Shown here: positions 1,307 through 31,929 of the stretch, one piece after another
How the letters are laid out: every line of letters begins with the position of its first letter
Position numbering within the stretch: position 1 is the first letter of the stretch
Source: a virus
Length of the DNA: 32,734 nucleotides
IMG/VR virus record: IMGVR_UViG_3300030388_000609
Coordinates: 1 to 32,734 of that record
Direction: 5' to 3' (one strand)
The notes under the pieces: model-generated
The model's input: only the letters and a program-made list of their open reading frames with translations
The model's database searches: none
What the model was told of the DNA's origin: nothing
Made by a program: the position numbers and the translations under genes

Positions 1307-1421
1307 TCAAAACTGCAAGCACACTTGCTATGTTACGTCTACAGCGCACACCATTTGCTGAAAAGGTTTATTGCCAGATATATTTTTATTAGTGTAAGGT
1401 GATCTTGAAAAGGAGAATGTT

Positions 1422-1745
1422 ATGGCTACTGTTAAAGAGCTTCAAGCTCAGTTAAAGAAACTTACTGTGCGTCGAGACAGCTTGCTATCGTTACGTTTTA
1501 TGAAGCATGAATTAGGCCCAAAGCAAGAGAAGCAGTTATCCAACGCTGCTAAAGAAGCGGACAAAATAAAGGTTTCGATGGATAAGACAGCAGCTGCTAT
1601 TAAGAAAAGAGAAGCAATGCTAAAAAGAGAGACCTCCAAATTACTCAAGGCGGGTCGTGGTGGCGGTGGCGGAAACGCCGGCAATCCTACAATAGACATG
1701 GGCAGCCACAAGGTACGATTAGTAAAAGATATGGTTGGTAAATAG
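1422..1745 (+). CDS. Small basic coiled-coil protein, unknown function
   Basis: 107 residues with a strong AAGGAGA site before the start. The protein is Lys/Arg-rich and mostly helical: heptad-like stretches run from residue 3 to about 80 (VKELQAQLKKL and AAAIKKREAMLKRE). A glycine run of five follows at about residues 79-85, then a short basic tail. I recognise no family. It opens a row of eight tiny genes between the two terminase subunits, so a virion or packaging accessory role is possible but not shown. Confidence 0.75.
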   Translation: MATVKELQAQLKKLTVRRDSLLSLRFMKHELGPKQEKQLSNAAKEADKIKVSMDKTAAAIKKREAMLKRETSKLLKAGRGGGGGNAGNPTIDMGSHKVRLVKDMVGK

Positions 1746-2161: not shown

Positions 2162-2352
2162 TGTGTTTTAGTGGAGCAAGCGCGGAAAACCGCTACCAAG
2201 CAATGAAGAAGACATACGATCCTCTTCCATCATTAGGAATGAAGTCTGACACCAGTGAAGACGCGGCCCCAGAGGCATCGCCATTAATGGATGTCCGCCG
2301 AGGAGGCAAGAAGAAGCGCTCTCTGCTAACGCCTATGTACAACGCGGGATGA
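2161..2352 (+). CDS. Small MCF-type phage protein A
   Basis: 63 residues. It begins MCFSG and ends with a Gly/Lys patch followed by KKRSLLTPMYNAG. The same layout (MCF start, acidic middle, Lys-Gly patch, RRSL near the end) occurs in the gene at 4710-4916, so the two look paralogous. Small MCFGG-type proteins are common beside terminase and portal genes of podoviruses; their function is unknown to me. It overlaps the upstream gene by one base and the downstream gene by four. Confidence 0.7.
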   Translation: MCFSGASAENRYQAMKKTYDPLPSLGMKSDTSEDAAPEASPLMDVRRGGKKKRSLLTPMYNAG

Positions 2353-2549
2353 GTTTTTTATCGACCCTACCAAGAGCAGACTTAGCCCTTCTTCGCCACA
2401 TCGTTCGCAAGACTGAGTATGCTTACATTGAAGCGAAGCACGGCAAGAGCTTTGTAACTGATGCTGAGTGCGACAAGCTCATAGATAGCATCGCCCCTGA
2501 GATAGTCGAGCGTATGATTAAGTTCGGCGTGGATAAAGGATTAAGATAA
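2349..2549 (+). CDS. Small hypothetical protein
   Basis: 66 residues, starting within the ATGA overlap with the previous gene. It is predicted helical throughout (ADLALLRHIVRKTEYAYIE, then a charged C-terminal helix ending KFGVDKGLR). No family recognised. Its final codons lie inside the first copy of a 19-bp repeat, whose second copy lies after the next gene. Confidence 0.7.
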   Translation: MSFLSTLPRADLALLRHIVRKTEYAYIEAKHGKSFVTDAECDKLIDSIAPEIVERMIKFGVDKGLR

Positions 2550-2825
2550 TGGCTGAAGAAACAGGACGCGCAAAATTAAACAAGCAAATGCTAGCCGCTG
2601 TAAGAAGGTACATCAAAGTTAAAAACGATGGTAGTGTAGTTGTTACTAAGGGTGTTGGCTCTTTTAAGCAGGGTCAACAGTTGCCTATGGTGGGAATAAA
2701 AGGCGCAAGCTTAATATCTACTGATCCTAAATCGAATCTTTCTTGGCAAAAAGAAAACGCAAAAACAGTTAGATCTATATTCAATGCAATAAAAACAAAC
2801 TCAGAGTAAAGGATTAAGATAATGG
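2534..2825. repeat. 19-bp direct repeats bracketing one small gene
   Basis: TAAAGGATTAAGATAATGG occurs exactly at 2534-2552 and 2807-2825. In the first copy it encodes the end of the upstream protein plus a TAATG stop/start overlap. In the second copy the same bases follow a stop codon and are untranslated until the next ATG at 2822. This looks like the remnant of a gene insertion or tandem duplication. Confidence 0.85.
2549..2809 (+). CDS. Small hypothetical protein inside a direct repeat (likely inserted)
   Basis: 86 residues. It has a basic N-terminal helix (RAKLNKQMLAAVRRYIKVK, residues 7-25) then a strand-rich middle (NDGSVVVTKGVGSFKQGQQL) and a polar C-terminus. No family recognised. 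It overlaps the upstream gene by one base but, unlike most neighbours, is separated from the next gene by 12 bases of repeat sequence. The 273-bp repeat-to-repeat unit is 91 codons. I infer late acquisition; its sequence looks more AT-rich than its neighbours by eye. Confidence 0.7.
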   Translation: MAEETGRAKLNKQMLAAVRRYIKVKNDGSVVVTKGVGSFKQGQQLPMVGIKGASLISTDPKSNLSWQKENAKTVRSIFNAIKTNSE

Positions 2826-2965
2826 GACTATACTCTAACATGAATGCCCGTAAGAAGGCTGGCACCAGCAGGTCTAAGAAGAAATCTACGGTTACAGACA
2901 AGGCATACTCTAATATGAAGGCTGGTTTCCCTAAAAAGAAGAGCCTTCTTAAAAAGAAAGTCTAG
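2822..2965 (+). CDS. Small basic phage protein (YSN/RKKAGTSR type)
   Basis: 47 residues: MGLYSNMNARKKAGTSRSKK, then a Thr/Lys segment, AYSNMKAGFPKKKSLLKKKV. The YSN...RKKAGTSR...AYxNMKxGFPKK pattern recurs, as I remember it, in tiny basic proteins upstream of phage large terminases; the function is unknown. The YSN-M element occurs twice within the protein (residues 4-7 and 29-32). It is translated from the ATG in the second 19-bp repeat. Confidence 0.7.
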   Translation: MGLYSNMNARKKAGTSRSKKKSTVTDKAYSNMKAGFPKKKSLLKKKV

Positions 2966-2968
2966 CAA

Positions 2969-3127
2969 ATGGCAAGTTTAACTGCAAAACAAACAGCAGC
3001 AATGAAGAAGCACAAGGTACATCATACAGCAAGGCACATGAGCAGTATGACTAAATCCATGAAGGCAGGTAAAACCTTTGGTCAAGCGCACACCATTGCA
3101 AAGAAAAGTGAAGCATCTAAAAAATAA
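2969..3127 (+). CDS. Small basic His/Lys-rich phage protein
   Basis: 52 residues: MASLTAKQTAAMKKHKVHHT, ARHMSSMTKSMKAGKTFGQA, then a basic tail. The LTAKQ...KKH...HHTxxHMxxM...MKAGKxFxxAH pattern matches, from memory, a common tiny podovirus protein encoded immediately before the large terminase. It may bind DNA given its charge, but no function is shown. The stop overlaps the large terminase start by one base (TAATG), so the two are probably translationally coupled. Confidence 0.75.
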   Translation: MASLTAKQTAAMKKHKVHHTARHMSSMTKSMKAGKTFGQAHTIAKKSEASKK

Positions 3128-4650
3128 TGGCTGAGTTTAAGTACAAACCTGACGGTGATGTCCTCAAAGAGTTTATGAAGAACACCACTTTTTTTCGTGG
3201 CATAAGAGGCCCAGTAGGTTCTGGTAAGTCTGTAGCCTGTTGCGTTGAAGTATTCCGACGTGCGCTTGAACAAGAGAAAAGCCCAGATGGAATACGACAT
3301 AGCCGATGGGCTATTATCCGTAACACCAACCCACAGCTTAGAACCACAACCATTAAGACATGGCTTGATTGGTTCCCAGAATCTGATTGGGGCAAGTTTA
3401 CTTGGTCCGTTCCGTACACCCACCACATTAAGAAGGGTGATATTAATCTCGAAGTTCTTTTCCTAGCATTAGATAGGCCCGAAGATGTTAAGAAATTACT
3501 ATCTCTTGAGCTTACTGGAGTCTGGATTAACGAAGCTAGGGAGCTTCCTAAGAGTATTATTGATGCCTGTACAATGCGTGTTGGTCGTTTCCCTTCAATG
3601 CGTGATGGCGGTCCTTCTTGGACTGGCGTTATTGCCGATACCAACGCCCCTGAGGAAGATCATTGGTGGCCAATCATGGCTGGGGAGGTTCCAGTGCCAG
3701 ATCATATTCCGCGTGAGCAAGCTAAGATGCTGGTTAAACCTTCGAACTGGAAGTTCTTTACGCAGCCCTCTGGTATGGTGGAAGACAAAGGGGACGAAGG
3801 GGAAATAAAAGACTACGTTCCCAACAAGAATGCTGAGAACACTAAGAATATGATGAAGTCTTACTACCCAAACCTCATACAGGGTAAGACTAAAAGCTGG
3901 ATTGACGTGTATGTAATGAATAAACTAGGCCATATCCAAGACGGAAAGCCTGTTTATCCTATGTTTGCACCTGATATCCACGTAGCAACAGACGAAATAC
4001 CAGTGGCAGCAGGGGTTCCTGTGTATGTGGGGGTAGACTTTGGCCTTACTCCAGCCGCAGTATTCGGCCAGAAGATACGAGGTCGTTGGTTCTTACAGTC
4101 TGAGATAGTAGCTATCGACATGGGCATTGTAAGATTTGCTGAAGTTATGCGTAATGAGCTATCAACTCGCTTTGCTGCTGCTGGCGATGTTATTATATAC
4201 GGCGATCCCGCAGGTGACTTTAGAGCGCAGACTGATGAATCTACTCCCTTTCACATTCTGCGTGGTGCTGGCTTGAAGGCGTACCCAGCGCCCTCCAACT
4301 CTGTTGACCTTCGTCTTGAGGCTGTATCTTCCCAGCTAACCAAGATGGTAGAAGGGAAGCCAGTGCTTTTAATTGATAGGCGCTGCCCACAGCTAATCAA
4401 AGGCTTTGAAGGTGGCTATGCTTATAAGCGTATGGAAGTATCAGGCGAACGATATGCTGATAAACCAGACAAGAATATGTTTAGCCACGTTCACGATGCT
4501 GCTCAGTACCTATTCTTAGGTGCCGGTGAGGGTCGAGCATTGATGAACTCACAGAAGCCAGCGGTCCCAGTGGTCGCCAAGCGGAACTTTGATGTGTTTA
4601 ACAGAGGTTCAAGCGCCAGAAAGAAGCCTAGCTTCTGGGCTAGGATGTAG
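3127..4650 (+). CDS. terL: Terminase large subunit
   Basis: ATP-driven packaging motor and headful or end-cutting nuclease, 507 residues. The N-terminal ATPase shows a Walker A motif GPVGSGKS at residues 28-35 and a Walker B-like LTGVWINEARE at 129-139, with E136 as the likely catalytic glutamate. The C-terminal RNase H-like nuclease shows VGVDFGLTP (D304), YGDPAGD (D360) and HVHDAAQY (D457), the usual acidic triad. Length is normal. The start overlaps the upstream gene by one base. It is followed by a promoter-like intergenic motif, so the portal block may have its own transcription start. Confidence 0.95.
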   Translation: MAEFKYKPDGDVLKEFMKNTTFFRGIRGPVGSGKSVACCVEVFRRALEQEKSPDGIRHSRWAIIRNTNPQLRTTTIKTWLDWFPESDWGKFTWSVPYTHHIKKGDINLEVLFLALDRPEDVKKLLSLELTGVWINEARELPKSIIDACTMRVGRFPSMRDGGPSWTGVIADTNAPEEDHWWPIMAGEVPVPDHIPREQAKMLVKPSNWKFFTQPSGMVEDKGDEGEIKDYVPNKNAENTKNMMKSYYPNLIQGKTKSWIDVYVMNKLGHIQDGKPVYPMFAPDIHVATDEIPVAAGVPVYVGVDFGLTPAAVFGQKIRGRWFLQSEIVAIDMGIVRFAEVMRNELSTRFAAAGDVIIYGDPAGDFRAQTDESTPFHILRGAGLKAYPAPSNSVDLRLEAVSSQLTKMVEGKPVLLIDRRCPQLIKGFEGGYAYKRMEVSGERYADKPDKNMFSHVHDAAQYLFLGAGEGRALMNSQKPAVPVVAKRNFDVFNRGSSARKKPSFWARM

Positions 4651-26948: not shown

Positions 26949-27416
26949 TTACCACCCGCTCGGTGCGGAGGGATCTTCTGATGACTTACCTTTGGTAACT
27001 TGTACTGAAGGCTTGCTTGCATCGTTGCCATCATCGTCTTCTGGCGCAAGGCAGGCCATGCCTAGCAGTCCGTATCTACGTGCGTAGGTTATAGCACTAC
27101 CTAAACCTTGCATGTCCTGTTTGCTAAGGGCTAGGTAAACCCTGCTTGAAAAGCGCTCTCCTGTAGTGTGAAGCAGCACTGTCTCAACGAATACACCGAG
27201 GTCATCACGGCCACATGGCTGCATGACTGCAAAGCCATTGGACTGAAACACCTTTGACGTTGCGTCAATCACTGCTTCGAGCGAGGCGTACCTGTTCTTG
27301 AAGTGTGGGTTGATGCTATCTTTCTTTACAGAAGTCATGCCTTGTTGGGCAGCTATCAAGGCTTTGACAGCTAAGGTACTGGTTGGGGAGTAACCACTGG
27401 TTAAAACATCGTTCAT
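26949..27416 (-). CDS. erf: ERF-family single-strand annealing protein
   Basis: Anneals complementary single strands during phage recombination, 155 residues. ERF features: NPHFKNRYASLEAVIDAT (residues 36-53), MQGLGSAITYARRYGLLGMA (102-121), and the acidic PEDDDGNDA after it. It is somewhat short for the family (P22 Erf is about 200 residues). Its start overlaps the YqaJ-like gene's stop by one base, so the pair is translationally coupled, as expected for a cooperating exonuclease and annealing protein. Confidence 0.92.
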   Translation of the reverse strand: MNDVLTSGYSPTSTLAVKALIAAQQGMTSVKKDSINPHFKNRYASLEAVIDATSKVFQSNGFAVMQPCGRDDLGVFVETVLLHTTGERFSSRVYLALSKQDMQGLGSAITYARRYGLLGMACLAPEDDDGNDASKPSVQVTKGKSSEDPSAPSGW

Positions 27417-28201
27417 TATATTCTCCTTGTTATGCGGAGTGATCCGCGTTTATCTCTCTTGACTACGAGTTGGTCACAGTAAACCTCTCGTTCGTTATCA
27501 CCGACCATTTGCTTGAGGTCTTTTTTGGCTGACTCAAATGCTTTGGCATCTGCTTCGAGCGTGCTGTAGGTATGGGCTGCGTCAACAAAGTGGTTGTCTG
27601 TTGTGGCGTCACGCTTGACCATGTCGTCCACCTTAATCTGGTCAGTCCCAAGTTGTATCGGCTGGTCATTACCAACTGGCTCTTCATCGCGTAGCACGTA
27701 ACCCCAGAAGTCTGACACCACTGCCCACATAGAATCGAAATACTTCTGATCGTAGCTGACATGCGCTGACTCCCACTTATTATTGCCAAAGATTACAGAA
27801 AGATACGCACCCTTTGCATTAGCTAAGTGCATGTATAGCTGCACTTGAGGCATGTAATAGTCGATAACCTTATCTAAAGTGTTGTAAGCATTAGTATGTT
27901 TGGCTTCTACTATTTGTATCTCATCATCAGCTGACTTACACATAGCATCCATCGTTCCCTTAACTGGAACTTCACCAATCGTATCCTTATAAGACTTCTG
28001 AAACCCTGATAGCTTTACATCGTACTCATCAGCAAACCATTTTAAATTAAAGTCTTCTGTATGCACACCCATCTGCACAGCTACGTTGCGAGACAAATCT
28101 TCTGACTCAGCACGTCCTGTCTTGACCTGCCATAATCCTAACCAGTTCCCCTGCATTATTTTTACGCAGTCAGAACCACCTATAAAACCCTTGCGTTCCA
28201 T
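27416..28201 (-). CDS. YqaJ-like PD-(D/E)XK exonuclease
   Basis: Degrades one strand of double-stranded ends for annealing, 261 residues. The nuclease core shows GTMDAM (D85), IVEAKH (E99, K101) and the downstream QVQLYMHLA helix (Q119, Q121), typical of the YqaJ/lambda Exo group. The N-terminus IGGSD (residues 7-11) and GVHTEDFNLKWF (about 45-56) fit too. AAGGAG precedes the start. The upstream gap carries a perfect inverted repeat. It pairs with the ERF protein next to it. Confidence 0.9.
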   Translation of the reverse strand: MERKGFIGGSDCVKIMQGNWLGLWQVKTGRAESEDLSRNVAVQMGVHTEDFNLKWFADEYDVKLSGFQKSYKDTIGEVPVKGTMDAMCKSADDEIQIVEAKHTNAYNTLDKVIDYYMPQVQLYMHLANAKGAYLSVIFGNNKWESAHVSYDQKYFDSMWAVVSDFWGYVLRDEEPVGNDQPIQLGTDQIKVDDMVKRDATTDNHFVDAAHTYSTLEADAKAFESAKKDLKQMVGDNEREVYCDQLVVKRDKRGSLRITRRI

Positions 28202-31274: not shown

Positions 31275-31462
31275 TACTTGTCACTCCTTTCATCTCTTAT
31301 TGGTAGGTTATTAAACTTTAGTTTATCAGCATCGCTACCAAACAGTTTGATTAGATAGCTTGATCCTGTGTCGTCTGTTATTTTTATACGTTTGACTGTG
31401 AACCCGTTGTAAATGACTGGTTCTATTGTAACTTCTTGTACTCTTTGGATAGTTACTTCCAC
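31274..31462 (-). CDS. Small hypothetical early protein
   Basis: 62 residues, strand-rich: MEVTIQRVQEVTIEPVIYNG, FTVKRIKITDDTGSSYLIKL. No family recognised. One-base overlap with the DUF932-like gene and 27 bases from the upstream gene support operon membership. Confidence 0.65.
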   Translation of the reverse strand: MEVTIQRVQEVTIEPVIYNGFTVKRIKITDDTGSSYLIKLFGSDADKLKFNNLPIRDERSDK

Positions 31463-31489
31463 TGTATGTCCTCCTAGACAATTTATTTA

Positions 31490-31759
31490 TTAGTTCTTTC
31501 CGTTCAGTTTTAGCTCACCTTCACAGGGTGGCTCCTCTTCCCAAGGCCCACATATATCAGCCAACTCTTTAGGTGTGATACCTGTCGTCAGGAACTCACG
31601 CTCATCAGCTGTGAGGTGTGAAGGCAAGGCATTTTTTATTAGCTCACCACCCTCCTCCCATGCCATTACTTGGGCATAGCTCACATCAATCATCATGCTA
31701 CTTAACTTATTAGTAAGCGCAGATCTTCTAACAAAATTATTAGGCATATTATTCCCCAT
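31490..31759 (-). CDS. Small hypothetical early protein
   Basis: 89 residues. Basic N-terminus (MGNNMPNNFVRRSALTNKLS) and acidic C-terminus (DICGPWEEEPPCEGEL). LTADEREFLTTGITPKEL (residues about 48-65) reads as two short helices. An internal ATG four codons on is an alternative start. Overlaps the upstream stop by one base. Function unknown. Confidence 0.65.
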   Translation of the reverse strand: MGNNMPNNFVRRSALTNKLSSMMIDVSYAQVMAWEEGGELIKNALPSHLTADEREFLTTGITPKELADICGPWEEEPPCEGELKLNGKN

Positions 31760-31929
31760 TATTTATTAGCTCTGTGTGCAGCAACATCTGCATCTTGCAT
31801 CTTATAGCTAAGGTTCATGATGCTATCATACACAGCACCTAAAGCCTCATTAGACTTGTTACCTGATACCATATTAAGCATCATCGTAGCGATGGCACGT
31901 AATTCTTTTACATTTTGTACATTGTCCAT
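31759..31929 (-). CDS. Small helical protein, first gene of the early operon
   Basis: 56 residues from ATG at 31929-31927 with AGGAGA upstream. It reads MDNVQNVKELRAIATMMLNM, VSGNKSNEALGAVYDSIMNL, SYKMQDADVAAHRANK: two amphipathic helices. No family recognised. It follows the candidate early promoter and is coupled to the next gene through TAATG. Confidence 0.7.
   Translation of the reverse strand: MDNVQNVKELRAIATMMLNMVSGNKSNEALGAVYDSIMNLSYKMQDADVAAHRANK

Follow-up and report, generated by a model that had tools for sequence, protein, structure and literature searches.

Probable recent gain of a small ORFan gene at a duplicated stop/start junction in the late operon of a podovirus-like marine phage

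The series of small genes located 5′ of the large terminase subunit (TerL) gene of the phage considered here includes a gene, g2549, whose start and stop codons fall within two perfect copies of a 19-base direct repeat, hereafter J (TAAAGGATTAAGATAATGG), the upstream copy forming the end of the preceding gene and the downstream copy the beginning of the following one (Table 1). The window, i.e., the whole stretch of DNA analysed, corresponds to the 32,734 bases of the virus record IMGVR_UViG_3300030388_000609 (IMG/VR). The source is a marine phage, podovirus-like judging from its genes: the window encodes a Head-tail_con portal, a Phage_capsid_2 capsid, tail and internal virion proteins. Among named phages, the terminase comes closest to that of Pelagibacter phage EXVC031P Hodr (65% identity at the protein level), followed by those of Methylophilales phage MEP301 and Burkholderia phage BcepC6B. 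The small genes surrounding J belong to the late (packaging) operon. Neither Rfam families nor tRNAs were found in the window. A separate 22-bp direct repeat (91%; CGTCAGGTTAACAGCAACCGCA) occupies positions 396-417 and 425-446, in a long stretch free of clear genes that separates two divergent gene blocks.

Table 1. Positions in the window of the repeat, of the genes around it and of the recombination genes
Feature	Coordinates	Strand	Remarks
g2349, conserved upstream gene	2349..2549	+	66 aa, ends VDKGLR-stop; 3′ end = copy 1 = left slot edge; has relatives 5′ of TerL in almost every locus
Repeat copy 1 (J)	2534..2552	+	spans the DKGLR-stop codons, an SD-like AAAGGA and the TAATG overlap up to the first bases of g2549; single in L092-L094
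Inserted 273-base unit	2534..2806	+	one repeat copy + 254 bases unique; exact 273-base gap in L092, L093, L094
g2549, gene probably gained	2549..2809	+	86 aa, ORFan; stop codon in copy 2; GC 0.375, GC3 0.30
Repeat copy 2	2807..2825	+	stop of g2549, SD-like AAAGGA, start of g2822
g2822, downstream gene	2822..2965	+	47 aa, phrog_25774; follows g2349 directly in relatives
g2969, small basic protein	2969..3127	+	optional slot occupant; present or absent among relatives
Terminase large subunit (TerL)	3127..4650	+	PHROG 2; right slot edge; gene used for tree
ERF-family single-strand annealing protein	26949..27416	-	Pfam ERF E=7e-22; PHROG 2324
YqaJ/RecE-like recombination exonuclease	27416..28201	-	phage-encoded

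J occurs exactly twice in the window, the two copies being identical at 19/19 positions and spaced by 273 bases, and the identity between them stops abruptly at both ends; no third site with up to three mismatches was detected in the window, where shuffles led to an expectation of 0.01 matches. It is the longest exact direct repeat found in the window at a spacing of 30-1500 bases, the longest such repeat in first-order Markov versions of the window (n=100) having reached 16. Copy 1 reads GAT AAA GGA TTA AGA TAA, i.e., DKGLR-stop, the last codons of g2349 (a gene without a known family in PHROGs or Pfam), which is joined to g2549 by a TAATG stop/start overlap. Copy 2 opens with the stop codon of g2549 (2807-2809), continues with 12 untranslated bases and closes with ATGG, the start of g2822. 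The edge of the inserted unit can slide by 19 bases, 2553-2825 being an equally valid placement.

The initial annotation of this DNA had described two perfect 19-bp repeats, and both their positions and their identity were verified, as was its reading of copy 1 as an upstream C-terminus followed by a TAATG junction. On the other hand, its view of copy 2 as an untranslated fossil applies to the 12 central bases but not to the stop codon of g2549, and the statement that TAATG overlaps occur all along the cluster is a slight overstatement, TAATG/ATGA being found at 2161, 2349, 2549, 3127 and 4916 but a 3-base gap at 2965/2969. The contention that deletion of one 273-base unit restores a g2349-TAATG-g2822 junction proved correct, and this very arrangement is present in relatives.

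As read from the sequence, J is the coding 3′ end of g2349 as well as the predicted Shine-Dalgarno region and the start codon of the next gene, and copy 2 likewise sits where the predicted ribosome-binding region of g2822 must be. Since J combines the g2349 end with a Shine-Dalgarno/start region, its duplication leaves each of the two following genes with one. A stem-loop is absent from J (z 0.08), and nothing resembling a promoter or a terminator was found in it, the promoter check consisting of the sigma-70 consensus only. A short hairpin of marginal significance (z -1.78) is created by the insertion edge around the start region of g2822 (AGAGTAAAG/CTATACTCT, 2803-2811/2828-2836), and the empty allele would be without it.

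The codon usage of g2549 is like that of the phage's own late genes (0.266 bits/codon in frame, negative in all other frames, 0/2000 shuffles), and the chance of an open frame for an insert of its composition is p ~0.0016. No homologue of g2549 was found in IMG/VR beyond a single contig, L001, nor among the phage records (best E = 5), the species genomes, or the fetched records and loci; PHROGs and Pfam gave no family, a weak RsgA_N match (E = 0.022) falling below its cut-off. The single-sequence structure model (mean pLDDT 45.8) is too poor for use. The inserted unit is AT-richer, its GC of 0.378 corresponding to the 11th percentile of the window, but this is only suggestive and the codon usage is phage-like, so that foreign origin by composition was rejected.

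Relatives were gathered by scans with the terminase and with g2349. Three independent contigs from three different samples (L092, L093 and L094) display the empty site, with a clean 273-base gap and a single J copy (GATAAAGGATTAAGGTAATGGG) that matches the window J at 18/19 positions. Their g2349, g2822 and TerL proteins are 100% identical to those of the window and their downstream DNA is ~99% identical; only 5 to 7 differences are found in the 434 bases to the left of the unit and therefore no long donor tract is visible around the insert. The filled allele is also present in L001, an independent contig with 99.77% identity; the occurrence of the same insert in a contig with 14 differences in 6119 bases, 0 of which inside the unit, makes an assembly chimera unlikely. 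All other relatives in which g2349 adjoins g2822 are also without g2549. Gene-less relatives with one repeat copy, which had been indicated as a check, are thus at hand, and the situation is the opposite of that which would have spoken against an insertion, namely the gene being present in every relative, between divergent flanks and without the repeat.

If filled and empty alleles are both known, in which direction did the change occur? Mapped on a tree of 129 terminase genes, the presence/absence of g2549 entails one change, located towards the tips, a count that by itself does not separate gain from loss. However, the window and L001 are nested in a well supported clade of 14 rows, in all other members of which g2549 is lacking and g2822 comes right after g2349, and gain is favored over loss because of this nested position; gain is favored also over repeated loss because every other g2349-g2822 neighbour pair is without g2549. 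In light of these data, the 273-base unit with g2549 was probably gained recently at J, between two late-operon genes, in the lineage of the window and L001. The recent gain of this gene had already been put forward in the initial annotation, and the empty sites and the nested tree position lend it support.

That g2549 is instead ancestral, its absence from the relatives resulting from a deletion (through recombination or slippage) between the J copies, is unlikely, even though a deletion between perfect repeats would yield exactly the empty allele observed and the published analogues (see below) did not decide between gain and loss. Indeed, in place of one gain, this reading would require at least three separate deletions in the 14-row clade, with L092-L094, L095-L097 and the L002-L112 group each losing the gene, or else its acquisition on the stem and a subsequent loss, and a perfect repeat is what is expected of a young event. 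In addition, the single J of L092-L094 and of the next group/outgroup, L095-L097, has TTAAGG where both window copies have TTAAGA; since a deletion between the window copies would leave A, the G of the empty alleles would need a further mutation. This base, however, also varies among other close relatives and can provide weak, supporting evidence only.

As far as its mechanism is concerned, the gain would have involved recombination at the J repeat, and annealing at J, homologous or template-switch joining, and longer homology with a donor having a g2349-like gene are the routes that can be envisaged. The joining would have used J as homology or as a template-switch site, perhaps with the aid of the phage's own Erf and exonuclease, and the insertion would have left J on both sides of g2549, with copy 1 ending g2349 and starting g2549, and copy 2 supplying the stop of g2549 while retaining the ribosome-binding site and start for g2822. 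Both g2549 and g2822 would be translated from their J copies, as suggested by this anatomy, and products with two J copies would be maintained since the translation starts of both neighbours are preserved. The ERF protein is a possible agent of such short-homology recombination, and the phage also encodes an SSB-like protein and a Holliday junction resolvase. In the case of phage D3, Erf and its exonuclease recombine identical and 78% identical sequences with an activity equal to that of lambda Red (PMC3945230). According to the minima cited there, pairing takes 31-34 bases with RecA and 23-27 bases with Red-beta (PMC3945230); with its 19 bases J is shorter, and by itself it may not suffice for efficient homologous exchange.

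A small unit with one ORF and direct-repeat flanks resembling a target-site duplication might also be the product of an ultra-small, MPME-like mobile element inserted with target duplication. This explanation is very improbable insofar as terminal inverted repeats are lacking (just one short pair occurs, at the right edge and not across the unit), no second location was found among the 316 loci or the records searched, and 19 bases exactly matching a stop/SD/start junction are unlike an ordinary target duplication; identity with MPME was rejected on the absence of terminal inverted repeats and of several genomic sites. Finally, practically no credence can be given to a functional convergence in which both genes would simply share one strong ribosome-binding/start sequence, for although J has AAAGGA and ATG and a start-region motif such as AAGGAGAATGTTATGG is widespread (at least 120 viral contigs), the identity spans bases without a translation role and matches the codons of the conserved g2349 C-terminus, the empty allele is short of exactly one unit, and the J 18-mer occurs in only 7 viral contigs, three of which from this phage group.

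Gene 14 of Corndog, genes 43-46 of LRRHood and gene 68 of Island3 represent the same kind of event as the probable gain of g2549. In the Cluster O mycobacteriophages, a 17-base direct repeat flanks the small Corndog gene 14 and is single in four relatives (PMC4351075, Fig. 12A); as in the present case, a small gene is found in one of several close phages and the repeat occurs once at the gene junction where the gene is absent, but the phage group is another one, and gain or loss was left undecided there whereas many relatives favor gain here. The direct repeat is of 29 bases in the case of LRRHood genes 43-46 and of about 50 bases in that of Island3 gene 68, whose product gp68 is an 85-aa ORFan with a C-terminus repeating that of the upstream gene (PMC3029335). 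These repeats too mark the 3′ terminus of the upstream gene and recur where the insert ends, yet they are longer than J, and that of Island3 belongs to the translated end of the new gene while in the window just the first three bases are used, as a stop. The traits of these cases recur here: the gene is cleanly absent from near-identical relatives (the gap of L092-L094), the repeat stands on both sides of it and is single in the empty site (19/19 in the window, 18/19 in L092-L094), and it coincides with the end of the upstream gene and the next start, both in the sequence and in the relatives. To the published cases, the present one adds a direction favored by many relatives and a reading of the repeat in terms of translation.

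Short conserved boundary sequences of mosaic phages have been discussed as places of exchange (PMC3029335). A short shared sequence at gene borders is what J has in common with them, the difference being that the boundary in the window consists of a coding 3′ end plus a ribosome-binding/start region. No donor phage with g2549 and the repeat was found in the collections searched, among which L001 is the only contig with a relative of g2549, nor is a donor known for the published cases. In the PeSL promoter/stem-loop cassettes of T4-type phages, attributed to Arbiol (2010) and Comeau (2014), a border regulatory sequence is reportedly associated with cassette shuffling; unlike these, J carries a translational signal, and identity with a PeSL cassette was rejected since neither a stem-loop nor, by the sigma-70 consensus, a promoter was found at the border. 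Both PeSL papers are among the references of PMC4503421.

The region between the end of g2349 and TerL, here called the slot, is variable. It contains nothing (90 rows), g2822, g2822 plus g2969, a LIPFDPKKHKP gene, MPKG genes or others, and its contents require 23 changes on the terminase tree. When both are counted on one 118-row tree, the filled/empty state of the slot requires 15 changes and the presence of extra DNA between the TerL and portal genes 6; length classes vary at the latter junction as well, and the notion of the slot as a unique hotspot is only partly supported. Most other slot changes have just 0-8 bases of shared sequence at their joins (the 20 bases of the L038/L126 join are a tie in a poor alignment), and a duplicated J as the general rule at the slot was accordingly rejected; the perfect duplicated junction is particular to the g2549 event, perhaps owing to its youth. 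From 368 to 9 bases 5′ of the L035 terminase there is an exact 27-nt repeat, part of which is an untranslated duplicate of the terminase start (MTTFKY), and then, before a second slot gene, a 37-nt decayed copy of L035's own g2349 end (0/500 shuffles); this may be an older insertion scar involving a different gene. Just 5′ of the terminase of L021, L031 and others, otherwise unlike slot genes have a common KKSLLK C-terminal coding sequence, perhaps a sequence that bounds the slot on the right. On L168-L171, contigs without a recognisable relative of the window terminase in the fetched stretch, g2969 has relatives (77-81% identical), and this gene may move between unlike phages. It is a rather doubtful extension of these data that the g2349 end/TAATG is a recurrent landing pad at which this phage group repeatedly loads and unloads small genes via its own Erf-type annealing protein; on such a premise, the duplication would keep every neighbour translated, since the conserved gene carries within its coding end the ribosome-binding site of the gene that follows.

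Ribosome-binding/start regions are also where other gene differences between these near-identical phages end. In L093 and L094, the 16-base repeat AAGGAGAATGTTATGG, a generic start region that is single in the window (1410-1425) and in L092, brackets an extra gene (MAEEKKDFRKD...); the gene following the extra one retains the GGGGKPTIDMGSHKVRLVKD C-terminus but differs in its N-terminus. Furthermore, the window genes 31490-31759 and 31759-31929 (minus strand) are missing from the near-identical contig of L094, in which the join (window 31462-31929, minus strand; L315 12000-12130) falls inside the ribosome-binding/start sequence of the outer genes. A different type of variation is seen at 1900-1999, inside gene 1892-2161 (DUF6321 domain), where a patch is ~27% divergent between the window and L092-L094, the DNA to its left being nearly identical and that to its right less divergent, a pattern indicative of a local exchange within the gene.

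Overall, this locus offers a clean natural snapshot of ORFan gain by a phage, in which filled and empty alleles are both in hand and the direction is favored by many relatives, a distinction that the published analogues could not make. The anatomy of the junction suggests the reason why the event spared the translation of the neighbours. At the same time, the locus marks an often-changing gene slot beside the terminase of a widespread marine phage group, a slot whose changes usually leave no such scar.
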